Virus record (IMG/VR): IMGVR_UViG_3300024255_000959
Coordinates: 1 to 27,729 of that record
From: a virus
Length of the DNA: 27,729 bases
Reading direction: 5' to 3' (one strand)
Shown here: positions 1 to 19,529 of the stretch, one piece after another
Layout of the letters: each line of letters opens with the position of its first letter
Numbering within the stretch: the stretch's first letter is position 1
The notes under the pieces: model-generated
Databases searched by the model: none
The model's input: only the letters and a program-made list of their open reading frames with translations
Told to the model about the DNA's origin: nothing
Made by a program: the position numbers and the translations under genes

Positions 1-467
1 GCAACTGGGGTCCGGGCATAGATGTATATGCCGCTGGAGAGAATGTAATGGGTGCTATGATGAAAGATGAAATTGCCTACGGTAATCCCTATTACGGACA
101 GGAAAGCAATACACCAAAATGGGATACTATGGGTTCGCAAAACGGCACAAGTTACGCTTCACCTTTAATAGCAGGTATGTTGGCTTGTTTAGCAGAAGTA
201 TATCCTACACTAACAAATGACCAAGCAAGAACATATTTACAAAACAATGCTGTTACAGGATTGATGGCGGATACAGCAGACGCAATAGATATAGATGTAA
301 GCACAAGAGTAAGCACGGACGGTGCTAACATTGATAGAATAGCACTATGGAAGAATCACAGAGCAACGTCAGGTAATATGGCGTTTAACACATACAATAA
401 AGACGTAAACACTCGTCCTACAAGTGGATTGATGTATCCTCGAGTTAGAACACGTAGACGCGGATAA
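1..467 (+). CDS. Subtilisin-like serine protease (S8), C-terminal part
   Basis: The reading frame is open from the window edge (first full codon at base 3), so only the C-terminal part of the gene is visible. The visible protein begins NWGPGIDVYAAG, like the segment of subtilases that follows the oxyanion Asn. It then has GTSYASPLIAGMLA, the classic block around the catalytic Ser. The catalytic Asp and His must lie upstream, outside the window. After the Ser block comes a helical end (PTLTNDQARTYLQ) and a tail of about 70 residues finishing in basic RTRRRG. The gene stands before a run of virion-type genes and a late promoter, so a role in the particle (capsid maturation or host-surface cleavage) is likely but inferred. 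An ATG at 48 lies inside the protease domain and is not the true start. Confidence 0.85.
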   Translation, partial: NWGPGIDVYAAGENVMGAMMKDEIAYGNPYYGQESNTPKWDTMGSQNGTSYASPLIAGMLACLAEVYPTLTNDQARTYLQNNAVTGLMADTADAIDIDVSTRVSTDGANIDRIALWKNHRATSGNMAFNTYNKDVNTRPTSGLMYPRVRTRRRG

Positions 468-5766: not shown

Positions 5767-6027
5767 ATGGGAAGTCGTGTATTCGGTGCCGATGAAAAGG
5801 CAAAATTAGAAAGACTAGTTAACGAAGGTGTTACAGTCTATCAAGAAGTAGAAGATTTAACAGCAGGCTTAAAAGATACTGTAAAGGCTGTTGCAGAAGA
5901 ACTTGATATTAAACCAAGTTTAATTAACAAAGCAATCAAAATTGCACAAAAAGGTGACTGGGAAAGAGTTTCCGATGAGTTTGACGACCTTGAAACATTG
6001 GTTGTTACTGTCGGTAAGGACAAGTAG
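5767..6027 (+). CDS. dsbA: DsbA-like double-stranded DNA-binding protein
   Basis: An 86-residue protein with the length and helical pattern of T4 DsbA, a small dsDNA-binding protein linked to late transcription. Visible features are a long helix (DEKAKLERLVNEGVTVYQEV), the conserved core KDTVKAVAEELDIKPSLINK with a helix-turn-helix-like shape, and an acidic end (SDEFDDLETLV). Similarity is moderate and based on pattern, so another small DNA-binding regulator is possible. It has a strong Shine-Dalgarno (AAAGGAG) and a perfect-consensus promoter, so it should be expressed strongly before late genes. The stop overlaps the next start by one base. Confidence 0.6.
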   Translation: MGSRVFGADEKAKLERLVNEGVTVYQEVEDLTAGLKDTVKAVAEELDIKPSLINKAIKIAQKGDWERVSDEFDDLETLVVTVGKDK

Positions 6028-6305
6028 TGCAAGGCATTAAAGACTTTTATAGAGATAGTCTCACCTCAGACCCAGTTGCACACTATGCAGAGATGATAGG
6101 TGCTGTTAGTGTTATTATAGGTAGTTCTATATTAACATGGACTGTACTTGCACCAAGACCAGACATATTCATTCCATTTTATTTTATAGGAAGTTGTGCA
6201 AGTTTCTTTGGTGCATATAGACGTGGACTACCTTGGGTATTAGTACTCACTGGTTGGTTCATTATTATGAACATCATTGCACTTAGTAGACTATATATTA
6301 CATAA
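6027..6305 (+). CDS. Small membrane protein
   Basis: A 92-residue protein with three hydrophobic segments at roughly residues 20-42, 47-63 and 69-88 (for example GAVSVIIGSSILTWTVL and WVLVLTGWFIIMNIIAL). There is a short basic loop (YRRG) between the second and third. The start is GTG, overlapping the previous stop TAG, with AAGGA ten bases upstream. It sits between the DsbA-like gene and the DNA polymerase. No family was recognised; it could be a superinfection or membrane-modifying protein, but nothing in the sequence decides this. Confidence 0.65.
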   Translation: MQGIKDFYRDSLTSDPVAHYAEMIGAVSVIIGSSILTWTVLAPRPDIFIPFYFIGSCASFFGAYRRGLPWVLVLTGWFIIMNIIALSRLYIT

Positions 6306-6340
6306 CGCCAAAGACAATAGTCAGGCATGCAGAAGGTTAA

Positions 6341-6356
6341 GTTGGCCACAAGCAAC
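6341..6356 (+). promoter_or_regulatory. Possible gp43 translational operator hairpin
   Basis: GTTG (6341-6344) and CAAC (6353-6356) can pair around an 8-base loop, directly upstream of the polymerase Shine-Dalgarno AAGGAG (6358-6363). T4 gp43 represses itself by binding a hairpin with an 8-base loop in the same place. The stem here is only 4 bp, so this is tentative. Confidence 0.3.
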
Positions 6357-6369
6357 GAAGGAGAAATAA

Positions 6370-9042
6370 TTGAGTTACGTAGACGCACTATTTGATCGCG
6401 ACTCTGACATTATCAGAACTGTCGAACGTAAAGACGGTAAAAGACATTATCACGAGTACCAAGCAAAATATACTTTTTACTATAAAGACCCACGTGGCAA
6501 ATACAAAAGCGTTTATGGCGATCCTTTAAGCCGTATTGTTTGTAAAAATACAAAAGACTTTAGAAAAGAAGTTGCTATCAACAGAGACAAGCAACTATTC
6601 GAAAGCGACATTAATCCTATCTTCCAATGTTTGAGTGAGAACTATCTTAATCAAGATGCACCTAAACTAAACATTGCTTTTTTCGATATTGAAACAGACT
6701 TTGATCCAGAGCGAGGCTTTGCTGATCCTGCTGATCCATTTATGCCAATTACTTCTATAAGTGTATACTTACAGTGGTTAGAAACAATGGTGTGTTTGGC
6801 AGTTCCGCCTAAGACACTTACAATGGAACAAGCAAAAGCAGAACTTGAAGGCATTGATAATGTAATGCTGTTTGAAAAAGAAAGTGGAATGATTGATACT
6901 TTCTTAACACTTATTGAAGACGCTGATATTTTGTCAGGTTGGAACAGTGAAGGTTATGATATTCCGTACACAGTAAACAGAACTAGTCGTGTACTAAGCA
7001 AAGACGACACAAGGCGCTTTTGTTTATGGGGCCAATTGCCTAAGAAACGTGAATATGAAAAGTATGGGAAATCAGCTGTTACCTTTGACCTAATAGGCAG
7101 AGTGCATTTAGATAGTTTAGAATTATATCGTAAATACACATATGAAGAAAGACACACATATAGACTTGATGCCATTGGCGAGATCGAAGTTGGTGAAAAT
7201 AAAGTTCCTTATGAAGGCACTTTGGACCAGTTGTACAACAATGACTTTAGAAAGTTCATCGAATACAACATACAAGATACCGCACTACTGGACAAGTTGG
7301 ACAAAAAACTAAGATTTATTGATCTAAGTAACGAACTTGCACACGCAAATACTGTTTTGCTACAGACCACAATGGGTGCTGTTGCTGTTACAGAGCAAGC
7401 GATTGTTAACGAAGCACATGCAAGAGGCTTACAAGTTCCTAATAGACCTAAACGTGACGACACAGAAAATACACAAGCCGCTGGTGCATATGTAGCATTT
7501 CCTAAGAAGGGATTGCACAAGTGGGTAGCGTCAATGGATTTGAATTCACTGTATCCTAGTGTGATTCGTGCATTGAATATGGCGCCCGAAACTGTTATAG
7601 GACAGATACGTCCTGAGATATCAGAAGCTCGTGTACATGAAGACATGACTCTTAAGAAGAAGTCATTTGCAGGTAGCTGGGAAGGTCGCTTTAGTACAGA
7701 AGAATACGAAGCCGTAATGGAGCAACGAAAAGACATTGCACTTACAGTTGACTTTGAAAACGGACAAACTGAAGTGTTAAGTGGTGCTGAATTATATAAG
7801 ATTATATTTGACAGTAATCAGCCATGGATGCTTAGTGCTAACGGTACTATCTTTACAACAGAGTTTGAAGGTGTTATTCCTGGACTACTAAAGCGTTGGT
7901 ATAGCGAACGTAAAGATCTACAAGCACAACTAAAGAAAGCAAAAGACGCAGGCAATGCTATTGAAACTGAGTACTGGGACAAACGACAGTTAGTTAAAAA
8001 GATTAACCTAAACAGTTTGTATGGTGCTATTCTTAATCCTGGTTGTAGATTCTTTGATAAGCGTATCGGACAGTCAACAACACTAACTGGCAGAACTATT
8101 GTTAAGCATATGAGTGCTGAAGTAAACAAAGTTATTACAGGTACATATGATCACGTAGGTGAATCTATGATCTATGGTGATACAGACTCTTGTTACTTTA
8201 GTGCATGGCCTATGCTAAAAGATGATGTAGAGGCTGGCAAAGTTGAATGGACTAAAGAAAAATGTATCACGCTTATGGATCAAGTGTGTGAACAAGCAAA
8301 TACATCATTTCCTGAATTTATGTTGGATGCGTTTCATTGTCCAAAGTCACGTAGTGATGTTATTGCCGCTGGGCGTGAGATTATTGCACAGTCTGGATTG
8401 TATATTACTAAGAAGCGTTATGCGGCATTAGTAATTGACAACGAAGGTTTTAGAACTGACATAGACGGCAAGGCTGGTAAAGTAAAAGCAATGGGCTTAG
8501 ACTTACGTAGATCAGACACACCTGTGTTTATGCAAGAGTTTTTAAGTGAACTATTACTTATGGTGCTTACAGATAAGCCGCAAGAAGATGTTCTAGAGCG
8601 TATTACAACATTCCGTCAGGAGTTTAGTAATCGACCTGGTTGGGAAAAAGGTAGTCCAAAACGTGCAAACAAAGTTGGACACTATCGACGCTTAGAAGAA
8701 AAACAAGGCAAGGCAAATATGCCTGGGCATGTACGGGCAAGCATTAACTGGAATACATTAAAACGTATGAACGGCGACAAATATTCGCAAGAGATCGTTG
8801 ACGGTATGAAAGTTATTGTTTGTAAATTGAAACAGAATCCGCTAGGTTATACTAGTGTTGCATATCCAACTGACGAGTTACGTATTCCAGAATGGTTTAA
8901 AGAACTTCCGTTTGATGATGCAGCAATGGCGGAGACTATTATTGATAACAAACTAGACAACTTAATTGGTGTGCTAAACTATCCATTAGAAGATACTAAG
9001 CGACATAATACGTTTACAAGTTTGTTTGATTTCGGAGAATAA
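6370..9042 (+). CDS. 43: Family B DNA polymerase (T4 gp43-like)
   Basis: The replicative polymerase, 890 residues, close to the T4 size. The proofreading exonuclease shows Exo I with NIAFFDIETDFD (D106, E108), Exo II with GWNSEGYDIPY and Exo III with YNIQDTALL. The polymerase domain has motif A MDLNSLYPSVI (about 389-399), motif B KKINLNSLYGA (about 543-553), motif C YGDTDS (602-607, metal-binding D604 and D606) and KKRYAAL. The protein ends TSLFDFGE, which resembles the SLFDMF clamp-binding tail of T4/RB69 gp43 and fits the gp45 clamp encoded at 10537. The start is TTG, chosen because AAGGAG lies seven bases upstream and no ATG fits the conserved N-terminus. Confidence 0.97.
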   Translation: MSYVDALFDRDSDIIRTVERKDGKRHYHEYQAKYTFYYKDPRGKYKSVYGDPLSRIVCKNTKDFRKEVAINRDKQLFESDINPIFQCLSENYLNQDAPKLNIAFFDIETDFDPERGFADPADPFMPITSISVYLQWLETMVCLAVPPKTLTMEQAKAELEGIDNVMLFEKESGMIDTFLTLIEDADILSGWNSEGYDIPYTVNRTSRVLSKDDTRRFCLWGQLPKKREYEKYGKSAVTFDLIGRVHLDSLELYRKYTYEERHTYRLDAIGEIEVGENKVPYEGTLDQLYNNDFRKFIEYNIQDTALLDKLDKKLRFIDLSNELAHANTVLLQTTMGAVAVTEQAIVNEAHARGLQVPNRPKRDDTENTQAAGAYVAFPKKGLHKWVASMDLNSLYPSVIRALNMAPETVIGQIRPEISEARVHEDMTLKKKSFAGSWEGRFSTEEYEAVMEQRKDIALTVDFENGQTEVLSGAELYKIIFDSNQPWMLSANGTIFTTEFEGVIPGLLKRWYSERKDLQAQLKKAKDAGNAIETEYWDKRQLVKKINLNSLYGAILNPGCRFFDKRIGQSTTLTGRTIVKHMSAEVNKVITGTYDHVGESMIYGDTDSCYFSAWPMLKDDVEAGKVEWTKEKCITLMDQVCEQANTSFPEFMLDAFHCPKSRSDVIAAGREIIAQSGLYITKKRYAALVIDNEGFRTDIDGKAGKVKAMGLDLRRSDTPVFMQEFLSELLLMVLTDKPQEDVLERITTFRQEFSNRPGWEKGSPKRANKVGHYRRLEEKQGKANMPGHVRASINWNTLKRMNGDKYSQEIVDGMKVIVCKLKQNPLGYTSVAYPTDELRIPEWFKELPFDDAAMAETIIDNKLDNLIGVLNYPLEDTKRHNTFTSLFDFGE

Positions 9043-9351: not shown

Positions 9352-9770
9352 CAGGTAGAGTAGGATTTACATGTAGTTCATTTGATTTGTTACACGCAGG
9401 TCATGTACAAATGTTGCGTGAAGCAAAAGCACAATGTAATTATCTTATTTGTGGATTACAAGTTGATCCTGCAAATGATCGACCTGAAAAGAACTCACCA
9501 GTACAATCTATCGTAGAACGATATACCCAGCTCAAGGCTGTTAGTTACGTAGATGAAATTATTCCTTATGGTACTGAAAAAGATCTAGAAGATATCTTAG
9601 AACTGTACACAATTAATGTACGAATACTAGGAGAAGAATATAGAGATAAAGAGTTTACTGGTAAAGATATATGCCGTAGACGAGATATAGAACTATATTT
9701 TAACAATAGAGATCATAGATTCAGTAGTTCAAACTTGCGAGCAAGTGTAATTAAATCGGAAAAGAAATGA
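9348..9770 (+). CDS. Cytidylyltransferase-like protein (TagD/RfaE type)
   Basis: A compact 140-residue nucleotidyltransferase. It has the HxGH motif in FDLLHAGHVQMLREAK (about residues 13-28), a strand with CGLQVDP, RYTQLKAVSYVDEIIPY, and a final SSSNLR (about 127-132) in the place of the family's RTxGISTT motif. The length and pattern match glycerol-3-phosphate cytidylyltransferase and the nucleotidyl domain of heptose enzymes, which activate a sugar or polyol phosphate with CTP or ATP. It overlaps the NAD epimerase gene that follows by four bases, so the two probably act in one sugar-nucleotide pathway. The substrate is unknown. It is separate from the larger nucleotidyltransferase at 1569. 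Confidence 0.8.
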   Translation: MTGRVGFTCSSFDLLHAGHVQMLREAKAQCNYLICGLQVDPANDRPEKNSPVQSIVERYTQLKAVSYVDEIIPYGTEKDLEDILELYTINVRILGEEYRDKEFTGKDICRRRDIELYFNNRDHRFSSSNLRASVIKSEKK

Positions 9771-10540
9771 ATATATTATTAACAGGATCAAGCGGCTTTA
9801 TAGGAAGTGAATTACTAAAGCGTCTAACTGTAAAGCATGGACACTATGTACACACAATTGATATTGCAAATGGTGTAGAACAAGACTTAATGTATTGTCA
9901 ATTTCCAAAAGAATCTACAATTGATTTAGTAATACATTTAGCAGGTAAAAGCGGTGTACGTGAAAGCATCAAAGATCCTGCTAGTTATTGGTTAAACAAC
10001 ATTGAAGCAAGTAGACGCTTGTTTAATGCTTACCCTAACACACGCATACTGTATGCAAGCTCTAGTAGCGCCTACGAGCCCGATTTAAACCCTTATGCAG
10101 CTTCTAAGTATTGTTTAGAAGAACTTGCATCACGTTATCCTGATACACTAGGCATGCGTTTTCATACAGTGTATGCAGATGTTTGTCCTAGAGAGAATAT
10201 GTTCTTTCGAAGACTACGCAATGATACATTAGAATATGCCACTAGGCATTATAGAGATTTTGTGCATTTACAAGATGTGTTAGATGCTATTGATTTATTG
10301 ATAGCAAAACCAAAAGTAAATGGCATAATAGATATTGGTACAGGGGTTCCTGTCCGTATCCAAGACCTTGCACCAGAGGCTCCTGTTCGCCTAAATACAC
10401 CTGGAGAACGAGAATATACTTGTGCAAACATAGAAAAAATTAAAGGACTAGGTTGGAAACCTAAATACTTTATAGAAAACTTCTTGACAAAAGAAGACAA
10501 AGGCAATATAATAAACATTACAAATGGAGAACCCTTATGA
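9767..10540 (+). CDS. NAD-dependent epimerase/dehydratase (extended SDR)
   Basis: A 257-residue extended short-chain dehydrogenase. Seen directly are the nucleotide-binding TGSSGFIG (residues 6-13), VIHLAGKSGVRES (like the HLAA block), a Ser-rich strand YASSSSAYEP and the catalytic Tyr/Lys in YAASK (Y110, K114). Family members act on nucleotide-activated sugars (UDP-glucose epimerases, dTDP-sugar dehydratases). It is shorter than typical 310-340-residue members, with a reduced C-terminal substrate lobe. Fused tightly to the cytidylyltransferase gene and placed between polymerase and clamp, it may help to make an unusual sugar for DNA, capsid or host surface. The 10484 promoter lies inside its 3' end. 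Confidence 0.85.
   Translation: MNILLTGSSGFIGSELLKRLTVKHGHYVHTIDIANGVEQDLMYCQFPKESTIDLVIHLAGKSGVRESIKDPASYWLNNIEASRRLFNAYPNTRILYASSSSAYEPDLNPYAASKYCLEELASRYPDTLGMRFHTVYADVCPRENMFFRRLRNDTLEYATRHYRDFVHLQDVLDAIDLLIAKPKVNGIIDIGTGVPVRIQDLAPEAPVRLNTPGEREYTCANIEKIKGLGWKPKYFIENFLTKEDKGNIINITNGEPL
10484..10512 (+). promoter_or_regulatory. Sigma-70-type promoter, exact consensus
   Basis: TTGACA (10484-10489) and TATAAT (10507-10512) have exactly 17 bases between them. Both boxes lie inside the coding end of the epimerase gene. The promoter gives the sliding clamp its own expression, with the RNA start about 18 bases before the ATG at 10537. Confidence 0.8.
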
Positions 10541-11265
10541 AAGATATTTTACAAGACATTGTCGCCCATACACATGCACTAGGTTTTTTAAGTCTAGTTA
10601 AAGTGACAAGCGACTCAGATACCTCAGTAGAGAGTATGGCAGATGACAGAAGTGTAATTCTGTCTGGTGCAATACATACTCCTGTTGCAGAATTTACAGG
10701 CACTTTTGGTATGCCTAACTTAGAAAAGTTAGCATTACATTTAAAGAATCCTGAGTATCAAAAAGATGCTAAACTTGATGTTGTAACAGCAGATAGAAAT
10801 GGCGAAGTTATTCCTACACATATTCACTTTGAAAATGCGGCAGGCGACTTCCAAAATGATTATCGCTTTATGAACAAAGCAATTATTGAAGAAAAACTAA
10901 AAACTGTTAAGTTTAAAGGTGCTTCATGGAATGTAACATTCCAACCAAGCATGGCAAGTATTGCACGTATGAAACTTATGAGTGCGGCGCATACAGAAGA
11001 GCCTACATTTAATGTAAGCACTAACGACGGTAACTTAACATTTAGTTTTGGTGATGCAAGTACACACGCAGGTGAGTTTGTATTCCAACATGGTGTTGAA
11101 GGATCGTTGCAACACACTTGGAGTTGGCCTGTAGCACAAGTACAAAGCATCTTAAACTTAGATGGCGATGTTACTATGAGCATTAGTGATCAAGGCGCAA
11201 TGATGATTTCAGTAGATAGCGGTATGGTCAAATACGACTACATACTTCCGGCGCAAAGCAAGTAA
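10537..11265 (+). CDS. 45: DNA polymerase sliding clamp (T4 gp45-like)
   Basis: A 242-residue protein with the length and strand-rich pattern of T4 gp45 (228 residues), the trimeric ring that tethers gp43 to DNA and activates late transcription. Visible features are an N-terminal helix (MKDILQDIVAHTHALG), FTGTFGMPNLEKLALHLKN, which matches the gp45 segment before its first domain boundary, and a repeated strand pattern in the second half ending YDYILPAQSK. No catalytic motif is expected. The assignment rests on overall pattern and on its position beside gp43. It has its own perfect-consensus promoter (10484) and a GGAG ribosome site. It overlaps the epimerase by four bases. Confidence 0.8.
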   Translation: MKDILQDIVAHTHALGFLSLVKVTSDSDTSVESMADDRSVILSGAIHTPVAEFTGTFGMPNLEKLALHLKNPEYQKDAKLDVVTADRNGEVIPTHIHFENAAGDFQNDYRFMNKAIIEEKLKTVKFKGASWNVTFQPSMASIARMKLMSAAHTEEPTFNVSTNDGNLTFSFGDASTHAGEFVFQHGVEGSLQHTWSWPVAQVQSILNLDGDVTMSISDQGAMMISVDSGMVKYDYILPAQSK

Positions 11266-11581: not shown

Positions 11582-13120
11582 ATGAACAAAGATTTAACCG
11601 CAACACAAAATGATTATGCAACATTTTTACCTGCACTTAGTGGCTTTTATGCTACGTATGTAGGTAAACAACGTTTTGATGAATATGTAGACAAAGCACG
11701 TATTCCAAGTAACTTTGCAAATGGTGTTGAGAGTTTAAACTATCTAAATAAAAACGAAGGTGCATTTACATATAAATGGACATTGTACTCAGCAGGACAT
11801 GCAGACTTAGATACTACTAAAGAAGTACCTAAAGAAGACATGGTTCGAAACAGAGATAGAGAAAACACTTGGCTACTAGGTGACTCAGGTGGTTTCCAAA
11901 TTGGTAAAGGTGTTTGGGAAGGCGATTGGAAAGATCCTAATTGTCCTAAAGCACAAAAGAAACGTGACGGAGTTCTTCGTTGGATGGACGCTTATATGGA
12001 CTATGGCATGGTACTTGATATTCCAGCCTGGGTAGCACGTTCAGAAGCAGGTGCTAAAGCAACCGGCATTAGCACATATGATGAAGCAGTTAAAGCAACA
12101 CGCATTAACAATGACTATTGGATGAAACACAGAACAGGTGCTTGTAAGTTCTTAAACGTTTTGCAGGGTGAGAATCATGCAGACGCAGATGACTGGTACG
12201 AGCAAATGAAAGATTACTGTGATCCTAAAGTGTATCCAGACAATCATTTTAATGGTTGGTCAATGGGTGGACAGAACATGTGCGATGTGCATTTGGTTCT
12301 TAAACGCATAGTTTCATTGATATATGATGACCTACTACAAACAGGTGTACATGATGTAATGCACTTCTTAGGCACATCTAAACTAGAATGGGCTACGTTA
12401 CTAACAGACATACAAAGAGCTGTTCGTAAATATCATAACCCAAACTTTATGATTACATTTGATTGTGCTTCACCTTTCTTAGCAACAGCAAACGGACAAA
12501 TTTATATTCAAACTGAAACTGAAGATAGAACTAAATGGGTCTATAGAATGGTTCCTAGTATTGATGATAAGAAGTATGCCGCAGATACTAGACTGTTTAA
12601 AGACGCTGTACTACAAGATAACATATTTAAAAACTTTACTAACAGTCCAATTACAAAAGACCTTAAAGTAAATGATGTGTGTCATTATGCACCAGGAATG
12701 TTAAACAAAATTGGTAAAGAAGGAAAGACATCATGGGATAGTTTTTCATATGCTATCCAAATGGGTCACAATGTATGGAGTCATATAAATGCTGTACAAG
12801 AAGCAAACAGACAATATGACGCAGGCATTATTCCTAAGATGCTTGTACAAGAACAATTTGACAGGCTTTTATTTAGAGACGTTGTGGAAGCAATATTTGC
12901 GGCTGGTGACAGAGAAGAAGCTAACGCAATAATTGAACACTACAGTCGCTTTTGGATGACCATACCTGGTACAAGAGGAGCGATTGGTAAAAAGACTGTA
13001 AACAGTAGTACATACTTTGGAAACTTATTTGAAGAAGTAGGTGAACCTGTAATTACAGACGAAGAAGATCTAGATGAAACAAAATTAGAGGATCTCGAGG
13101 ATGAGCAACTTCACAGATGA
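11582..13120 (+). CDS. dpdA: TGT-like DNA deazaguanine transglycosylase (DpdA-like)
   Basis: A 512-residue protein with the full active-site series of tRNA-guanine transglycosylases. It has DSGGFQ (D101, base recognition), LDIPAW (D146, the D156 equivalent of Zymomonas TGT), LNVLQGE (Q195, like Q203), GWSMGG (G229-G230) and TFDCASPFLATANGQIY (D294, the nucleophile). The usual Cys-rich zinc site is reduced to C367 with H396 and H401. No PUA-type RNA-binding domain is evident; the tail is acidic. Phage TGT relatives with these traits are DpdA enzymes, which exchange guanine in DNA for a 7-deazaguanine. The folE and queE genes at 17952-19529 supply that pathway, which supports DNA rather than tRNA as target. 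The ribosome site is weak. Confidence 0.8.
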   Translation: MNKDLTATQNDYATFLPALSGFYATYVGKQRFDEYVDKARIPSNFANGVESLNYLNKNEGAFTYKWTLYSAGHADLDTTKEVPKEDMVRNRDRENTWLLGDSGGFQIGKGVWEGDWKDPNCPKAQKKRDGVLRWMDAYMDYGMVLDIPAWVARSEAGAKATGISTYDEAVKATRINNDYWMKHRTGACKFLNVLQGENHADADDWYEQMKDYCDPKVYPDNHFNGWSMGGQNMCDVHLVLKRIVSLIYDDLLQTGVHDVMHFLGTSKLEWATLLTDIQRAVRKYHNPNFMITFDCASPFLATANGQIYIQTETEDRTKWVYRMVPSIDDKKYAADTRLFKDAVLQDNIFKNFTNSPITKDLKVNDVCHYAPGMLNKIGKEGKTSWDSFSYAIQMGHNVWSHINAVQEANRQYDAGIIPKMLVQEQFDRLLFRDVVEAIFAAGDREEANAIIEHYSRFWMTIPGTRGAIGKKTVNSSTYFGNLFEEVGEPVITDEEDLDETKLEDLEDEQLHR

Positions 13121-13301
13121 ACACAATAAAATTGCAGGCTATTTACAAGAGCTATATAAGAAGCATAGAAAACTTGACGAAGAAATAAAATTAATGTATA
13201 ATACTTTTGCAAGTGATAGTGCTATTAACAGGCTTAAAACAAAAAAACTTTGGTATAAAGACGAAATTCATAGATATGAAACAAGGCTAAAAACATTATG
13301 A
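13101..13301 (+). CDS. DUF465/YdcH-like small protein
   Basis: A 66-residue helical protein with an N-terminal helix (HNKIAGYLQELYKKHRKLDE) and the segment RLKTKKLWYKDEIHRYETRL, matching the small YdcH/DUF465 family, in which LK.KKL.LKDEI is the signature. The family forms short helical hairpins; its function is unknown. The gene starts 20 bases inside the end of the TGT-like gene with a GAGG ribosome site, and its stop overlaps the next ATG. It is therefore translated with both neighbours. Whether it helps the transglycosylase cannot be told. Confidence 0.65.
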   Translation: MSNFTDEHNKIAGYLQELYKKHRKLDEEIKLMYNTFASDSAINRLKTKKLWYKDEIHRYETRLKTL

Positions 13302-13816
13302 AAAGAGATTATAACACAGGCACATTAGACAGTATTACATTCTTTACAGGTGTAGAAGTTGAAAAGACTCCTGCATTAGGAATGAAAACATTGTTTGTTA
13401 CAGGCAAACAAGACTATAATACAATAATGAAACACTACACAGAAGAACAGTGTGAACACATCTTCTTTGGTGCCAATCATAGTTATAGTCCTGTTAAAGC
13501 AGATGATTTCGAAGATTGGGATCTAATGATACGTGCATTTACTGATCAGGAAATATTATGTAGTTTGGACATACCAAGTACAATTAATATGGAATGGTTT
13601 TTAGATGGCGGTCTAACTGAATCAGATTACTTTATTCCACAAATACGTGTAGTAGTTCCTTATATTAAACAGTGGAACTACAATACAATGATTAAAATCG
13701 ATGACAAAGATTTTAAAGCATCCAATCCAGGTGTGTGGTGTCATAGACTCCACGATTTAATGGATAGCGAAAAGTTTACGGATTGGACTAAATATTCGCT
13801 TGACAAACCATTATAA
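13298..13816 (+). CDS. Unknown protein in the dpdA operon, 172 residues
   Basis: A soluble-looking, mixed alpha/beta protein. Notable segments are TGVEVEKTPALGMKTLFVTG near the N-terminus, EHIFFGANHSYSPV near residue 55, DIPSTINMEWFLDGG in the middle, and aromatic-rich VVVPYIKQWNYNTMIKIDD followed by WCHRLHDLMDS. Acidic and His residues are scattered but no known catalytic motif stands out. I do not recognise a named family, though similar segments seem conserved among marine phages. The ATGA overlap with the DUF465-like gene, itself inside the end of dpdA, makes it a candidate accessory protein for that enzyme. The promoter at 13800 lies in its last codons. Confidence 0.7.
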   Translation: MKRDYNTGTLDSITFFTGVEVEKTPALGMKTLFVTGKQDYNTIMKHYTEEQCEHIFFGANHSYSPVKADDFEDWDLMIRAFTDQEILCSLDIPSTINMEWFLDGGLTESDYFIPQIRVVVPYIKQWNYNTMIKIDDKDFKASNPGVWCHRLHDLMDSEKFTDWTKYSLDKPL

Positions 13817-13828: not shown

Positions 13829-13891
13829 ATAACAATGCAAGAACGTTATCATGAATACATGTTACGCAGAACAAAAGAGGAAAATGCCAAG

Positions 13892-14317
13892 ATGAAACAA
13901 GAGAATGCACTAAATAATGCTACTAGAAGTATATGGGTAACCTTTACTAAAGAAGGCATCCATAAGTATCCAGGAGCAGATAGTGATCCAAAACTTGCAA
14001 CAGGTGATTGGGACGATGTGTCGTTTCTTGCTGTGCCTCATCGTCATATTTTCCACTTCAGGGTGCGTATCGAAGTGTTCCACAACGATAGAGACATCGA
14101 GTTCATCCAATTTAAACGATGGCTTGAAAGATTATATTCTGAGCAAGGTACGTCCGACAGTGAAGTGCTTGTTCTAGATTATAAGTCCTGTGAGATGATC
14201 GCAGATGACTTATACGAAGAAATTTCTACAAAGTTCCCCGGCCGATTTGTAGAGATTAGTGTTGCTGAAGACAACGAAAACGGCTGTGTAATTTATTACC
14301 CAAACCCTAAATCTTAA
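13892..14317 (+). CDS. Conserved marine-phage protein, possible T-fold (QueD-like)
   Basis: Core segments are RSIWVTFTKEGIHKYPGA, a His-rich strand (VPHRHIFHFRVRIEVFHND), EFIQFKRWLERLY, SCEMIADDLYEEISTKFPG and EISVAEDNENGCVIYY. The order of a His-containing beta hairpin, a helix, an acidic-start helix and a final strand with ED...G resembles QueD/6-pyruvoyltetrahydropterin synthase T-folds. The classic Cys and HGH motif are absent, so activity is unproven. Start choice: ATG 13892 has AGAGGA ten bases upstream and lies inside the transcript of the 13800 promoter. The longer frame from ATG 13835 (160 residues) would be leaderless. Codons in the middle are more GC-rich than in neighbours. Confidence 0.7.
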   Translation: MKQENALNNATRSIWVTFTKEGIHKYPGADSDPKLATGDWDDVSFLAVPHRHIFHFRVRIEVFHNDRDIEFIQFKRWLERLYSEQGTSDSEVLVLDYKSCEMIADDLYEEISTKFPGRFVEISVAEDNENGCVIYYPNPKS

Positions 14318-14344: not shown

Positions 14345-14575
14345 ATGGCAATCAAGTTTAATAAGCCCGCTTACGACAAAATTTTTCGTGACTTGGAAAA
14401 TTTTAAAGACTTCTGTCGCTACGTTGGCGATGCTAAAAACGTGGCGTTCGTTTACAACGAAAAGGATTTGTATAACGAACGATCTTATGTGTGGCGCTCA
14501 TATCAGCGTCATGTTAACCACCTTAAGGCAAAAAGCCGTTCAGGTAAAAACTTTAATCACAAACGGAGAAACTAA
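14345..14575 (+). CDS. Small basic hypothetical protein, 76 residues
   Basis: A basic, aromatic-rich protein: MAIKFNKPAYDKIFRDLENF, FCRYVGDAKNVAFVYNEKD, then VWRSYQRHVNHLKAKSRSG ending in NHKRRN. The Arg, His and Lys content suggests nucleic-acid or ribosome contact, but this is inference. A GAGGA ribosome site lies nine bases before the ATG. Codon choice (TTC, CGC, TAC, AAC) is more GC-rich than in most of the window, as in the preceding gene. The stop overlaps the glycosyltransferase ATG. Confidence 0.7.
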   Translation: MAIKFNKPAYDKIFRDLENFKDFCRYVGDAKNVAFVYNEKDLYNERSYVWRSYQRHVNHLKAKSRSGKNFNHKRRN

Positions 14576-15636
14576 TGACTATTCATATTGTAGATATTGA
14601 AGCCGTAGACACACGCTATACTAAGCAGTGGAAAGATTATCTTCCACGTCAACTGTTGAAGTCTACAAATGAAAAGATAAATGTTATTAGTGGCGGGGAT
14701 ACACCTCAGGCAACTACGCCTGGGGCGTTCCTCAACTTCGGCGGTACTAATGTATACAAGTCAAAACAGCTCGAGCAAATAGGAGAAATGTTTTGTAATG
14801 GTGCTGTTAAAGATGGTGATTACTTCTTATACACTGACGCTTGGAACCCTACTGTTATACAACTTCGTTACATGGCAGAACTACTAGGCGTTGATGTTTG
14901 TATTGGCGGTTTGTGGCATGCAGGGTCTTATGATCCTCAAGATTTCCTAGGTAGACTTATAGGAGATAAGCCTTGGGTAAGACATGCTGAAATGTCAATG
15001 TTTGAATGTTATGATGATAACTTCTTTGCAACTGACTTTCATATTGATATGTTTACAGATACACTAGGTGAAGATTATCAAATTGACAATGATAAAATAC
15101 ATCGAGTAGGCTGGCCTATGGAGTATCTAAAGAATAGTTTGGATAGTTATAAAGGTATGGAAAAACGTAACCTTATACTTTTTCCACACAGAGTTGCTCC
15201 TGAAAAACAAGTTGATATATTTCACGACTTAGCACAACAACTACCCGAATACGAGTTTGTTGTATGTCAAGAACGTGATCTTACAAAGAATGAATATCAC
15301 AACTTGTTAGGTGAAGCTAAACTTGTGTTTAGTGCTAACTTACAAGAAACACTAGGTATTAGTTGGTACGAAGGTGCATTAGTAGATGCTATTCCTATGG
15401 TGCCAGATAGATTGAGCTATAGTGAAATGTCTGTGCAGGAGTTTTTATATCCTAGCAAATGGACTGAAGACTATACAGCATATAGAAAGCATAGAGGCGA
15501 AGTTGTTACACAGATACGCAACTACATGGAAAACTATTCCGACTATTTGGTTAGTTTGGAGAAACAACGTAAAATACTTAACAAAGACTTTTTTAGTGGT
15601 AGTGCATTATATGAAAGGCTTAAAGATGAGCGATAA
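14575..15636 (+). CDS. GT-B glycosyltransferase (GT4-like)
   Basis: A 353-residue protein with two-domain GT-B architecture. The C-terminal donor domain starts RNLILFPHRVAPEKQVDIF (about 197-215). It has the EX7E signature in ETLGISWYEGALVDAIPMVPD (E258, E266) typical of family GT4 retaining enzymes that use nucleotide sugars. The N-terminal half (for example GDYFLYTDAWNPT and GGLWHAGSYDPQD) is the acceptor domain and gives no clue to the target. Targets could be phage DNA, by analogy with T4 glucosyltransferases, a virion protein or host surface glycan. Proximity to dpdA makes modified DNA attractive but unproven. A GC-rich hairpin lies within its 5' part (14704-14725). Confidence 0.8.
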   Translation: MTIHIVDIEAVDTRYTKQWKDYLPRQLLKSTNEKINVISGGDTPQATTPGAFLNFGGTNVYKSKQLEQIGEMFCNGAVKDGDYFLYTDAWNPTVIQLRYMAELLGVDVCIGGLWHAGSYDPQDFLGRLIGDKPWVRHAEMSMFECYDDNFFATDFHIDMFTDTLGEDYQIDNDKIHRVGWPMEYLKNSLDSYKGMEKRNLILFPHRVAPEKQVDIFHDLAQQLPEYEFVVCQERDLTKNEYHNLLGEAKLVFSANLQETLGISWYEGALVDAIPMVPDRLSYSEMSVQEFLYPSKWTEDYTAYRKHRGEVVTQIRNYMENYSDYLVSLEKQRKILNKDFFSGSALYERLKDER

Positions 15637-15976
15637 TACTTATACGTATAATTACAGTAGTGATGATACTATTACAATAGATACTAGTAATTGGGACGAT
15701 AGTTTTACTACTAGTCCTTCATCTATATATACTAATGATACTTTTACATTTACAGATGCTGTGGCCGGAAAATACGGTCTTTCTGTTGAAGGTAAACTAG
15801 AAGTAGATGGCGTAGACGTTATGCAATCTATTAAAGATTTGCAACTTGTACTAGGTGTAGTTAGTAGAGATCTTGAAAAAGAAGAAAAGTACAAAGGCTT
15901 AAAACGTGCCGCAGAAGCATATGAACGTGAACTAGCAAAGATTGAAACTTTTGAAGCTCTAAAGGACTCAGCATAA
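15626..15976 (+). CDS. Conserved phage protein with Ser/Thr/Asp-rich head and coiled-coil tail
   Basis: A 116-residue protein. Residues 1-45 are rich in Ser, Thr, Asp and Tyr (MSDNTYTYNYSSDDTITIDT). A short strand pair follows (GLSVEGKLEVDGVDVMQSIK), then a long helix (LVVLGV-like, then RAAEAYERELAKIETFEALKD) that may form a coiled coil. The start at 15626 overlaps the glycosyltransferase by 11 bases. A longer open frame reaching to 15422 lies inside that gene and is not supported. Similar proteins occur in other T4-like marine phages without known function. Confidence 0.7.
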   Translation: MSDNTYTYNYSSDDTITIDTSNWDDSFTTSPSSIYTNDTFTFTDAVAGKYGLSVEGKLEVDGVDVMQSIKDLQLVLGVVSRDLEKEEKYKGLKRAAEAYERELAKIETFEALKDSA

Positions 15977-16440
15977 TGTTTGGTTTTTTAAAAGGTCGTA
16001 AACGTGTAATTAAAGATAGAGATAGTAACGAGCCTTACTTGGTTCGTTGGTATTTGTTTTTAAAGGACAGAAAGAACTTTCCGTTCAATGTCACTCTGCA
16101 CAAAGTTTTAAAAAGCGACGAAGCAACGTTACACGATCATCCTTGGAGTTATGCAACACTTATACTTAAAGGTGGTTATTGGGAGAATGTTCCCGTTGTT
16201 AGTAGAGAAGGATTCATAGTAGGATCACGTGGTATCTGGCGTGGACCAGGACACTTTAGATTTCGTAAGTCAGATGACTTACATTTTTTGACTTTAGAGA
16301 AAGACAAAGACGGTAATGAAATACCATGTTGGAGTTTATTCTATATGGGCAAAAAAGCAAAAGAATGGGGCTTTGTACCTTTTGTACAAGGCATTGGTTA
16401 TAGATGGCAAAATAGCGAAGATTACCTCGCTAAGGAGTAA
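15976..16440 (+). CDS. Cupin-like protein
   Basis: A 154-residue protein with a cupin-type core. LHDHPWSYATLILKGGYWE (about 52-70) matches the first cupin motif, where the His residues bind metal. RGPGHFRFRKSDDLHFLTLE (about 91-110) matches the second, including the late His. Basic and aromatic residues flank the core. Cupins range from sugar epimerases to dioxygenases and binding proteins, so the reaction is unknown. With the nearby glycosyltransferase, epimerase and cytidylyltransferase it could handle sugars, but this is inference. The start overlaps the previous stop (TAATG). Confidence 0.65.
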   Translation: MFGFLKGRKRVIKDRDSNEPYLVRWYLFLKDRKNFPFNVTLHKVLKSDEATLHDHPWSYATLILKGGYWENVPVVSREGFIVGSRGIWRGPGHFRFRKSDDLHFLTLEKDKDGNEIPCWSLFYMGKKAKEWGFVPFVQGIGYRWQNSEDYLAKE

Positions 16441-16443
16441 TTT

Positions 16444-16713
16444 ATGAGTCAGTATAATGACGTAGTAGAAAGGCAACGAGATTTGTTAGAAGCAGAAAAA
16501 TGGGCAACGGGTGTAAAAAGTTTGCACTTCCATAGCTTAAAAAGTATGTGGTATGATACTCATCCTGAAGATTCAGACATGGGTATGGTAATGGATGTTG
16601 AATACAACAACGGTGTAATAAAGCGTACACTAAAAGATAACAGTGTACGAATTTTTGGTGAAGAACTTAGTGGAGAACAACTCCTCGACGAATACAAAAG
16701 GAATAATAAATGA
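16444..16713 (+). CDS. Hypothetical protein, 89 residues
   Basis: A polar, acidic protein with an N-terminal helix (YNDVVERQRDLLEAEKWATG), then strands (VKSLHFHSLKSMWYDTHPED, GVIKRTLKDNSVRIFGEEL) and a final helix. No family was recognised. AAGGAG precedes the ATG at 16444. The stop region overlaps the next ATG by four bases, so it is probably co-translated with the phosphoribosyltransferase. Confidence 0.7.
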   Translation: MSQYNDVVERQRDLLEAEKWATGVKSLHFHSLKSMWYDTHPEDSDMGMVMDVEYNNGVIKRTLKDNSVRIFGEELSGEQLLDEYKRNNK

Positions 16714-17270
16714 AGAAACATTATTACACTTGGGGACACATTGAAAAAATGTGTATTGATATTGCAATGCAGATGCAAAAAGACAACTGGAAGCCAGACT
16801 ACATTGTAGGCATTACACGTGGTGGTAATGTTCCTGCTACAATACTGTCGCATATGTTAGGCGTTCGTTGTGAAGCATTAAAAATTAGTTTACGTGATGA
16901 CGATGAAAGTGGAAGCGAAAGTAATCTTTGGATGGCGACTGATGCATTTGGATATGTAGATGAAGAAGATCGTAAAACTACTAAAAGTCGTTGGGACGTT
17001 AGTAAACGTAAAAATATTTTAATTGTAGATGATATCAATGATACAGGCGCAACACTTGATTGGATCAAGCAAGATTGGCCAGCTGGTTGTTTACCCGACG
17101 AAAACAGTTGGAGTACTGTGTGGAATAAAAATGTAAGATTTGCTACACTAACTGAAAACCTTGCAAGTAGTTTTGACGGCGTAGATTATTCAGCACACGA
17201 AGTTAACAAAGCAGAAGAAGATGTTTGGTTAGTTTACCCTTGGGAAATAGTAGGTAAGTATGACGCTTGA
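16710..17270 (+). CDS. Phosphoribosyltransferase-family protein
   Basis: A 186-residue type I phosphoribosyltransferase. The PRPP-binding motif reads ILIVDDINDTGAT (V106-T115), and an upstream loop has YIVGITRGGNVPATILSHML (about 31-50), as in purine-type enzymes. An acidic insertion (RDDDESGSESN) replaces the usual flexible loop. Such enzymes link a base to PRPP to make a nucleotide, or the fold serves as a regulator. The substrate base is not clear; guanine or xanthine types are the nearest by pattern. It overlaps the HIT gene by 11 bases, suggesting a joint role in nucleotide salvage. Confidence 0.75.
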   Translation: MKKHYYTWGHIEKMCIDIAMQMQKDNWKPDYIVGITRGGNVPATILSHMLGVRCEALKISLRDDDESGSESNLWMATDAFGYVDEEDRKTTKSRWDVSKRKNILIVDDINDTGATLDWIKQDWPAGCLPDENSWSTVWNKNVRFATLTENLASSFDGVDYSAHEVNKAEEDVWLVYPWEIVGKYDA

Positions 17271-17634
17271 TACATTAGAACAAGCTCAGCAAGAAGGCAG
17301 AGCACCATGGGATAACGTGTACTTAGATACTAGAGACTTTGTAGTATACGAAGACAAGTATCCTGTAACTGAAGGACATTTGTTAGTAGTACCTAAAGTA
17401 AATGTTATGGATTGTGTAGAAAAATGTTTTAAGTTTGCTATGTCAATGGGAAACGATAATGTTACAACAACCAAGAATAACGTTACTGGTTATAATATTG
17501 GCCTAAATATAGGTGTAAGTGCAGGACAAACAGTTATGTACCCACATGTACATTTAATCTTCCGTCGTGATGGAGATATGGAAGATCCGAAAGGTGGCGT
17601 AAGAGGCGTCATTCCATCTAAACAAAAATACTAA
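17260..17634 (+). CDS. HIT-family protein with altered histidine triad
   Basis: A 124-residue HIT protein. The fold is clear: VYEDKYPVTEGHLLVVPK, then a conserved Asn strand (TGYNIGLNIGVSAGQTVMYP), then the active-site region PHVHLIFRRDGDMEDPKGG. HIT hydrolases use H-x-H-x-H; here it reads H96-V-H98-L-I100, so the third His is replaced by Ile. The central His that attacks the phosphate (H98) remains. Similar two-His forms occur in other marine phages. It probably acts on dinucleoside polyphosphates or nucleotidyl conjugates, with uncertain activity. It is coupled to the phosphoribosyltransferase by overlap. Confidence 0.8.
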   Translation: MTLDTLEQAQQEGRAPWDNVYLDTRDFVVYEDKYPVTEGHLLVVPKVNVMDCVEKCFKFAMSMGNDNVTTTKNNVTGYNIGLNIGVSAGQTVMYPHVHLIFRRDGDMEDPKGGVRGVIPSKQKY

Positions 17635-17951: not shown

Positions 17952-18641
17952 ATGGATAAATCCAAAGAGATAAAGGCCCGTTTGCAACAAGCAAACAAAC
18001 GCTTCTGGGCAGGCGACAACATTTCAGACTATATTAAAGACGGCGAAAAGCAAATACTAATTGATGAGCTTGCTGTTAAGTTTGAAGACGTATTACAAGG
18101 TCTTGTAATAGATACAGAAAACGATCCTAACAGTAACGGCACAGGCAAACGTCTTGCTAAGATGTATGTTAACGAACTAATGAGCGGTAGGTATGATCCT
18201 ATGCCAGCGGCAACAGCATTTCCAAATGACAGTGACGAACGTTACGAAGGTATGCTAGTAGTAAGAAGTGAACTTACAAGTATGTGTTCACATCATCATC
18301 AGATTGTTAAAGGCGTAGCATACATTGGTATTATTGCATCAGACAAATTAATTGGTTTAAGTAAGTACACAAGAATCGCACAATGGTGTGCGATGCGTGG
18401 AACACTACAAGAAGAACTAGCAAATGACATTGTACGTGAGATTCAGAAAGCCACAGGTGCAGAACACTTAGGTGTTTATGTACAAGCAACACACGGTTGT
18501 GTTGAAAACAGAGGTGTTAAGGCACACAGTAGTCTTACACAAACAACTGTTTTAAAAGGTGCGTTTAAGGATGACGCAGGTACAAAGAAAGAGTTTATGG
18601 ATAATATTAAACTCCAACAAGAATTTGCATGTGGGAAGTAG
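17952..18641 (+). CDS. folE: GTP cyclohydrolase I
   Basis: A 229-residue FolE, which turns GTP into dihydroneopterin triphosphate, the first step of both folate and 7-deazaguanine synthesis. The zinc ligands are present: C112 and H115 in SMCSHHHQ, and C183 in THGCVENRGVK. They correspond to C110, H113 and C181 of the E. coli enzyme. GKRLAKMYVNELMSG and GLSKYTRIAQW are further family blocks. queE follows three bases after its stop, so the product is most likely meant for preQ0-type bases rather than folate. Expression is set by a consensus promoter with a dyad (17858-17907). The ribosome site GGAGA lies eight bases before the ATG. Confidence 0.93.
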   Translation: MDKSKEIKARLQQANKRFWAGDNISDYIKDGEKQILIDELAVKFEDVLQGLVIDTENDPNSNGTGKRLAKMYVNELMSGRYDPMPAATAFPNDSDERYEGMLVVRSELTSMCSHHHQIVKGVAYIGIIASDKLIGLSKYTRIAQWCAMRGTLQEELANDIVREIQKATGAEHLGVYVQATHGCVENRGVKAHSSLTQTTVLKGAFKDDAGTKKEFMDNIKLQQEFACGK

Positions 18642-18644
18642 AGT

Positions 18645-19529
18645 ATGAAACTTAGATATTCAGAAGCGTTTTATAGCGTACAAGGAGAAGGCAAGTTTGT
18701 AGGAGTGCCTAGTGTATTCTTACGTACATTCGGTTGTAACTTTCGTTGCATGAACTTTGGATTAGAAAGAGGAACGCCTGCAAGAGCAGATGGTGTAAAA
18801 CATAATCCAGAAGTTAAAAAGTTACTCGATAGTAATATTATAAGTACTGTTGAAAAATTTACAGACTTACCTGTAATACATACAGGTTGTGATACATATG
18901 CTAGTATCTATCCAGAGTTTAAAAAGTTTATGATGGATAGAACTGTAGATGAAGTTGTAGAACATTTGTTATCACTTACTCCAGAAGGTAAGTGGACAAT
19001 GGATAGCGGACAAGATGTCCACTTGATTTTCACTGGCGGTGAACCTTTGTTAGGGTGGCAGAGATTCTATGCTGAATTGTTAGAACACCCGCGTATGAAG
19101 GACTTAAAAAATGTTACATTTGAAACAAACACTACGCAAAAGTTACGACCAGATTTTAGAGACTATCTTAATAGTCAAGACAGATTTGAAGTTACTTGGA
19201 GTTGTTCCCCAAAACTTAGTGTCAGCGGAGAACGCTGGGAGGATGCTATTATGCCTGATATTGCTAGTGAGTATTTCAGTGTTGCTAATAGTAACCTTTA
19301 CTTTAAGTTTGTTGTGGCTGACAGTATTGACGTTGAAGAAGCTGGCAGAGCTGTGGCGAGTTATAGAGACGCCGGGATACAATGTCCGGTATATCTTATG
19401 CCGTTGGGTGGACGAAGTGAAGAATACAAGCTCAACATTCAAGAAGTGGCTGAGCTCTGTATGGAAAAAGGATGGCGATTCACTCCACGACTACACATCG
19501 ACTTATTCGGTAATGCCTGGGGAACGTAA
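18645..19529 (+). CDS. queE: 7-carboxy-7-deazaguanine synthase (QueE-like radical SAM)
   Basis: A 294-residue QueE. The N-terminus YSEAFYSVQGEGKFVGVPSV is diagnostic for the family. The iron-sulfur cysteines are C31 and C35 (FGCNFRCMN) and, after an insertion of 46 residues, C82 in TGCDTYASIYPE, where GCDT corresponds to the WCDT of standard CX3CX2C enzymes. The spacing here is therefore CX3CX46C. FTGGEPLL (about 128-135) is the SAM-binding block. The end RLHIDLFGNAWGT matches the usual QueE C-terminus, so the protein is complete. It makes CDG from carboxytetrahydropterin. Paired with folE and with the DpdA-like gene in the same window, it argues for 7-deazaguanine in phage DNA. Confidence 0.9.
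   Translation: MKLRYSEAFYSVQGEGKFVGVPSVFLRTFGCNFRCMNFGLERGTPARADGVKHNPEVKKLLDSNIISTVEKFTDLPVIHTGCDTYASIYPEFKKFMMDRTVDEVVEHLLSLTPEGKWTMDSGQDVHLIFTGGEPLLGWQRFYAELLEHPRMKDLKNVTFETNTTQKLRPDFRDYLNSQDRFEVTWSCSPKLSVSGERWEDAIMPDIASEYFSVANSNLYFKFVVADSIDVEEAGRAVASYRDAGIQCPVYLMPLGGRSEEYKLNIQEVAELCMEKGWRFTPRLHIDLFGNAWGT

Follow-up and report, generated by a model that had tools for sequence, protein, structure and literature searches.

The DNA stretch analysed here (the window) is an entire virus record of 27,729 bases, IMG/VR record IMGVR_UViG_3300024255_000959, and what we say of its genes is limited to that fragment. The window carries an open reading frame (ORF) for a predicted member of the tRNA-guanine transglycosylase (TGT) superfamily that resembles the phage DpdA proteins, together with genes of 7-deazaguanine synthesis (Table 1). 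A first-pass annotation, made from the letters alone, had called this ORF a likely DNA-modifying DpdA and had marked five landmarks of TGT catalysis in it (D101, D146, Q195, G229-G230 and D294). The ORF and all five landmarks were recovered at those residues. IMG/VR holds at least 594 loci homologous to the window protein, and a chance origin of the ORF or of its motifs is therefore excluded.

Residue conservation was examined in an alignment of 48 diverse relatives of the window protein. The D101-S-G-G motif (D101, S102-G104), Q106, D146, G196 and D294 were retained in 48/48, as were H261, G264, D365, W385, D386 and H396. Position 230 was G in 46/48, while position 195 was Q in 37 and S in 11, and position 229 was G in 34 and A in 14. 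Thus the three aspartates, together with G196 and G230, are under constraint, and neither Q195 nor G229 is strictly needed; of the five landmarks read as a catalytic set, the invariant part is D101, D146 and D294 (48/48 each). These three are the equivalents of the catalytic aspartates D102, D156 and D280 of the Zymomonas enzyme. By profile, residues ~188 to 310 of the window protein align with E. coli Tgt, pairing NVLQGE with GIIQGS, GWSMGGQN with GYAVGGLA, HFLGTSK with YLMGVGK and FDCASPF with FDCVMPT; the equivalences of D101 (in DSGGFQ) and D146 were taken from alignments to other phage TGT-like proteins. In the mechanism that we propose, D294 would most likely be the nucleophile and D101 and D146 would hold the base. 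The first-pass annotation had also described a reduced zinc site, which the alignment bears out: only C367 (43/48) and H396 are kept of the CxCxxC...H arrangement.

The AlphaFold2 (AF2) model of the window protein had a pLDDT of 86.8 and a pTM of 0.86. All 49 Foldseek matches to the PDB at E<=1e-3 were TGTs. Against a viral library, the top Foldseek matches included a 596-amino-acid protein of the same length as the homologue in Vibrio 2.275.O; lower in the list were the Motura protein labelled 'tRNA guanine transglycosylase' (7.3e-12) and Vibrio nt-1 R9TGF0 (3.9e-11). As had been noted from the sequence, the model contains no PUA-like C-terminal domain of the archaeal type; the C-terminal part is helical and includes residues 467-498, which were modelled with low confidence. 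The first-pass annotation had taken this absence to point towards DNA, but it does not discriminate, because bacterial tRNA TGTs likewise lack a PUA domain.

Single-sequence searches of the window protein against Pfam, PHROGs, NCBIfam, PADLOC and the PDB gave zero matches. The Pfam TGT family, PF01702, did not match it directly at E<=10 and was matched by 1/48 relatives, at 0.054; profiles of the window family gave zero matches in the PDB. Scans seeded with the PA5oct or the 2.275.O protein alone found nothing, whereas the family alignment worked as a seed. By hhalign, the window family matched the GR7B/Peetri/NCTB/Motura family at 98.3% (E 2.3e-14). That family in turn matches the archaeosine TGT 1iq8 at 7.6e-10, and its NCTB protein matches PF01702 at 1.5e-8. 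The link to TGTs was thus obtained solely through intermediate families and fold. Taken together, the AF2 model, the Foldseek matches and this stepwise homology to Pfam TGT proteins support the TGT fold well.

Pairwise BLAST sorted the phage transglycosylases into four clusters: the window protein with those of PA5oct, Phosso and 2.275.O (cluster 1); GR7B, Peetri, NCTB, Motura and Ep032 (cluster 2); phi-pp2, Moby, ACP17, X1 and BUCT-ZZ01 (cluster 3, DpdA2); and 9g and phiSM (cluster 4, DpdA1). The window family had no detectable similarity to the DpdA1 of phage 9g (hhalign 0.1%, E 0.48) and a weak profile match to DpdA2 (E 0.0097), which forms a separate BLAST cluster. By these sequence comparisons the window protein belongs to a separate DpdA-like subfamily, set apart from DpdA1 and DpdA2. 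The earlier naming as DpdA is therefore right in part: fold, transitive homology and neighbourhood, FolE and QueE included, support a TGT-superfamily enzyme probably acting on DNA, but one that does not match DpdA1 and matches DpdA2 weakly.

Conservation of the neighbourhood was counted at loci that extend at least 7.5 kb downstream of the TGT gene, from 32 close and 36 distant relatives (Table 1). FolE and the QueE-like enzyme go beyond what the first-pass annotation had reported, as does the absence of QueC described below. The QueE-like protein matches Pfam Radical_SAM below the cut-off only and shares 40% identity with QueE from Synechococcus phage BUCT-ZZ01. Relatives of the glycosyltransferase-like protein include EST35_0317 of PA5oct (45% identical), which comes after the TGT gene in that phage and matches PF00534 at E 0.0011. 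The g13298 model had no match among PDB folds at E<=1e-3; g13298 relatives occur in PA5oct and, in Acidovorax phage ACP17, beside FolE. The TGT neighbourhood is found again in marine and freshwater phages and in PA5oct-like jumbo phages, and in Vibrio phage 2.275.O the homologous gene adjoins QueF, a YhhQ-type transporter, QueC and FolE.

Table 1. Features of the window, with supporting matches and conservation at related loci (close relatives, distant relatives).
Coordinates	Strand	Feature	Evidence	Loci
48..467		139-aa ORF, fragment matching C-terminal part of subtilase	PF00082, 2.4e-10	
6370..9042	+	T4-type (gp43-like) family B DNA polymerase	phrog_262 E 9.6e-197	
9767..10540		Nucleotide-sugar epimerase	PF01370 2e-22; phrog_540	21/32, 8/36
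10537..11265	+	Conserved gene just upstream of TGT gene	phrog_12062	30/32, 35/36
11582..13120	+	TGT-superfamily (DpdA-like) transglycosylase; ATG start, 512 aa	AF2, Foldseek, residue conservation	
13298..13816	+	g13298, conserved protein, function not known	AF2 pLDDT 84.9	32/32, 33/36
13835..14317	+	g13835, small conserved protein, candidate CDG-processing enzyme	phrog_17812 (function not known)	32/32, 36/36
14575..15636	+	Glycosyltransferase-like, probably GT4 type	45% identical to PA5oct EST35_0317	32/32, 31/36
15976..16440	+	Cupin/cysteine-dioxygenase-like, variable association	phrog_4786 E 2e-31	22/32, 18/36
16710..17270	+	Purine-type phosphoribosyltransferase	PF00156 E 9.1e-15; xanthine PRTase model 1.7e-13	32/32, 26/36
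17260..17634	+	HIT-domain protein	PF01230 E 1.8e-8	
17952..18641	+	FolE, GTP cyclohydrolase I	PF01227 E 5.8e-37; phrog_2197 E 3e-44	31/32, 27/36
18645..19529	+	QueE-like radical SAM enzyme (7-carboxy-7-deazaguanine synthase)	phrog_2076 E 7.7e-50	32/32, 19/36
CDG, 7-carboxy-7-deazaguanine; PRTase, phosphoribosyltransferase; aa, amino acids.

The substrate could in principle be tRNA. A tRNA-modifying TGT that raises queuosine-type modification of host tRNA, with FolE, QueD and QueE boosting the precursor, would agree with the fold matches, since every solved one is a tRNA TGT, and boosting of tRNA queuosine has been discussed for phages in which the pathway is present and DpdA is not (PMC6884629). 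We nevertheless consider a tRNA substrate unlikely. The window protein has no Pfam-detectable relation to bacterial Tgt at E<=10, its zinc site is reduced, and its gene lies in a neighbourhood of replication genes; jumbo-phage homologues adjoin QueC, QueF and YhhQ, and the DpdA of phage 9g did not complement a tgt mutant (PMC6884629). With FolE and QueE encoded in the window and the neighbourhood recurring across phages, a DNA-acting enzyme of the DpdA type is the best reading. DNA is the likelier substrate because of this context, namely the conserved neighbourhood, the 2.275.O locus and the gene order of phage 9g.

A second way to modify the DNA would bypass base exchange. In that case the module would supply the dGTP pool with a 7-deazaguanine nucleotide, made from the base and phosphoribosyl pyrophosphate (PRPP) by the window phosphoribosyltransferase, with the TGT-like protein as an accessory. 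The purine-type phosphoribosyltransferase is indeed kept in the neighbourhood (32/32, 26/36) and adjoins QueE in BUCT-ZZ01. The catalytic aspartates of the transglycosylase are however intact in 48/48 relatives, the PA5oct locus contains no phosphoribosyltransferase match, and salvage of freed guanine would explain the enzyme equally well. We therefore regard supply through the dGTP pool as highly improbable. That the phosphoribosyltransferase re-uses guanine freed by base exchange is itself speculation.

The pathway was surveyed in 20 large IMG/VR contigs with relatives of the window protein and in the PA5oct and Phosso records. QueE was found in 20/20 of the large contigs, FolE in 17/20 and QueD in 14/20. 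QueC was found in 0/20, nor was it present in the records of PA5oct and Phosso; the same search recovered QueC in the positive controls 2.275.O, GR7B, Motura, phi-pp2 and 9g. The small gene g13835, by comparison, was present in 15/15 large contigs tested. Further phages were listed by tblastn with the g13835 relative of BUCT-ZZ01, and 23 named phages were scored for both genes: 12 had QueC only, 10 had g13835 only, one (D479) had both and none had neither. This near mutual exclusivity gives a Fisher p of 9.6e-6, which is indicative only and overstates the strength of the pattern because the 23 phages are non-random and share ancestry. The exchange occurs in two separate transglycosylase clusters. 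In cluster 1, PA5oct, Phosso and the marine phages carry g13835 and 2.275.O carries QueC; in the DpdA2 cluster, ACP17, BUCT-ZZ01 and X1 carry g13835 whereas phi-pp2, nt-1 and Moby carry QueC. The choice between the two genes thus seems to follow the base being made and not the transglycosylase. On the simplest view, g13835 acts on CDG where QueC otherwise would. By eye the motifs of g13835 weakly resemble those of QueD-type T-fold proteins, but hhalign gave 14% and neither Pfam nor the PDB gave a match, and we do not claim this relationship.

With a probability of about 0.72, we infer that the window protein is a DNA-guanine transglycosylase that belongs to a DpdA-like subfamily of its own and inserts a 7-deazaguanine. 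Because QueC is consistently absent and g13835 stands in its place, the base put into the DNA is probably either CDG itself or something that g13835 derives from it, and not a phage-made preQ0. Phage FolE and QueE, both in the window, with QueD in larger relatives, would supply CDG. Guanine would be taken out of the phage DNA after replication and the 7-deazaguanine base put in, and the modified genome would presumably be shielded from host restriction.

Several points weigh against this interpretation. The Foldseek TM-scores are moderate, ~0.4 by query and ~0.55 by target, because of insertions. D479 has g13835 together with a partial QueC-like match. In X1, g13835 is accompanied by a QueC match under the family cut-off, for which reason X1 was scored as g13835 only. 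The case for a DNA substrate rests on context, and no assay or mass spectrometry of the window subfamily was found in the literature searched. QueD and QueC lie outside the 27.7-kb fragment if present, so the window alone cannot settle the pathway. A host could supply QueC, which makes preQ0 a possible base. The protein would then still be a DNA-guanine transglycosylase, but its base would be preQ0 or a derivative, finished from CDG by the host QueC, and g13835 would have some other role. Mycobacterium phage Bipper, which lacks QueC alone, was grouped with the preQ0 phages, with CDG left open (PMC6884629). The near-exclusivity of QueC and g13835, repeated in two TGT clusters, suggests instead that g13835 takes over the step after CDG, and we hold host completion of preQ0 to be possible but not probable.

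The glycosyltransferase occurs almost solely in phages carrying g13835, which leaves room for a decorated base. We tentatively suggest that g13835 replaces QueC: it may decarboxylate CDG, or convert it in some other way, to yield a different 7-deazaguanine base, which the distinct transglycosylase subfamily would insert into DNA. Phages with the glycosyltransferase may decorate this base further, in which case abundant marine and freshwater phages would carry a hitherto undescribed DNA base. The epimerase encoded upstream of the TGT gene could be a source of sugar donors for the glycosyltransferase. Cui et al. in 2023 reportedly described DNA with dCDG and with unsubstituted deazaguanine, and a CDG decarboxylase, DpdL. 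It is possible that g13835 corresponds to DpdL; ACP17 and phiST were reportedly among the phages of that work.

The same accessory set (g13835 plus the glycosyltransferase) surrounds a DpdA2-type transglycosylase in ACP17 (L196), Xanthomonas X1 (L198) and BUCT-ZZ01 (L177). It follows that the accessory genes move between transglycosylase types.

The window DNA polymerase is nearest to those of jumbo phages (Phosso 49.8%, PA5oct 50% identical). The earlier description of the virus as T4-like is therefore loosely right only: it holds for the polymerase family, but the nearest named relatives are Phosso and PA5oct. The conserved gene just upstream of the TGT gene looked like a sliding clamp by eye, but it had no PDB profile match and did not match Moby gp45, and we make no such claim. 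The subtilase-like fragment lies near the start of the window. No tRNA genes were found in the window.

Related genes also occur outside the named phages. Bacterial genome contigs, some very long, encode TGT-like proteins of 420-470 amino acids that are 25-33% identical to the window protein (L212, L216, L217, L221, L226, L227, L233, L239 and L240, at ~5980-7390 in each, and further genome contigs). The gene usually lies right behind one for a 550-660-amino-acid protein without a Pfam or PHROG family (26 loci). A scan of one locus, L239, showed tyrosine integrases and serS in the vicinity. FolE, QueD, QueE and QueC gave no match near these bacterial-contig genes. These genes may form an integrated unit for DNA modification or defence, with precursors drawn from the host. 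Four further loci, in bins of metagenome-assembled genomes (MAGs) assigned to Neomarinimicrobiota, Pacearchaeota, Euryarchaeota and Rhodobacteraceae (L204, L205, L206 and L207), carry the TGT gene at 55-80% identity. All four also carry g13835, and L204-L206 have more of the module; they are therefore probably phage contigs misplaced in MAG bins.

This kind of system is already known, and what the analysis adds is the subfamily, an indication of how abundant it is, and the pattern of QueC and g13835. Since a DpdA-like subfamily with at least 594 IMG/VR loci is missed by Pfam, PHROGs, NCBIfam and PADLOC, DNA modification in environmental phages is under-counted. The pattern suggests that the 7-deazaguanine pathway can end without QueC, g13835 being a concrete candidate gene. 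Cultured phages suitable for testing exist, namely the PA5oct-like phages, Sinorhizobium phage Phosso and Acidovorax phage ACP17. A modified guanine would affect both the restriction resistance of such phages and how well their DNA sequences.

Among known systems, the jumbo phage PA5oct (Arenbergviridae) offers a direct homologue, EST35_0316, which is 37% identical over 80% of the query and is labelled just 'hypothetical protein' in the records. PA5oct shares the gene order of polymerase, 10537-like gene, TGT, glycosyltransferase, g13835, QueE and 5'-3' exonuclease. Iyer et al. 2021 assigned PA5oct a deazaguanine synthesis/incorporation system, in a passage that does not name the gene, and gave Motura a transglycosylase (PMC7824862). 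The literature searched contained no DNA analysis of PA5oct. The TGT-like proteins of Motura, GR7B and NCTB form the nearest sister cluster and have 'DSGGFQ' in common with the window protein, but they retain the CxCxxC zinc motif, and their phages have QueC and lack g13835. The Motura protein, annotated as a tRNA guanine transglycosylase, sits in a FolE-QueE-QueC cluster. ACP17 has a module like that of the window, with FolE, QueD, QueE, a glycosyltransferase (40%) and g13835-like and g13298-like genes around the transglycosylase, and lacks QueC; its transglycosylase however belongs to the DpdA2 cluster. Escherichia phage 9g, whose DpdA replaces guanine in DNA (PMC6884629), resembles the window in its order of polymerase, clamp, DpdA and FolE. 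Its DpdA1 differs in having 317 amino acids and 'DSGAFS', and the phage encodes gat-QueC. The DpdA2 proteins of Vibrio nt-1 and phi-pp2 share with the window protein the TGT fold and the DSGG(L/F)Q and (F/Y)D motifs, and their phages also have adjoining 7-deazaguanine genes and T4-type replication genes. DpdA2 has 'DSGGLQ' where the window protein has 'DSGGFQ', and nt-1 and phi-pp2 encode QueC and lack g13835. The definition of phage DpdA and DpdA2 goes back to Hutinet et al. 2019, who also measured dPreQ0 in the T4-like phage nt-1 (PMC6884629), and a 2025 study of a Schizotequatrovirus reported 15% modification of deoxyguanosine (dG), consistent with dPreQ1 (PMC12028318). T4-like phages with 7-deazaguanine DNA were thus already known (nt-1, PMC6884629; 6E351A, PMC12028318).
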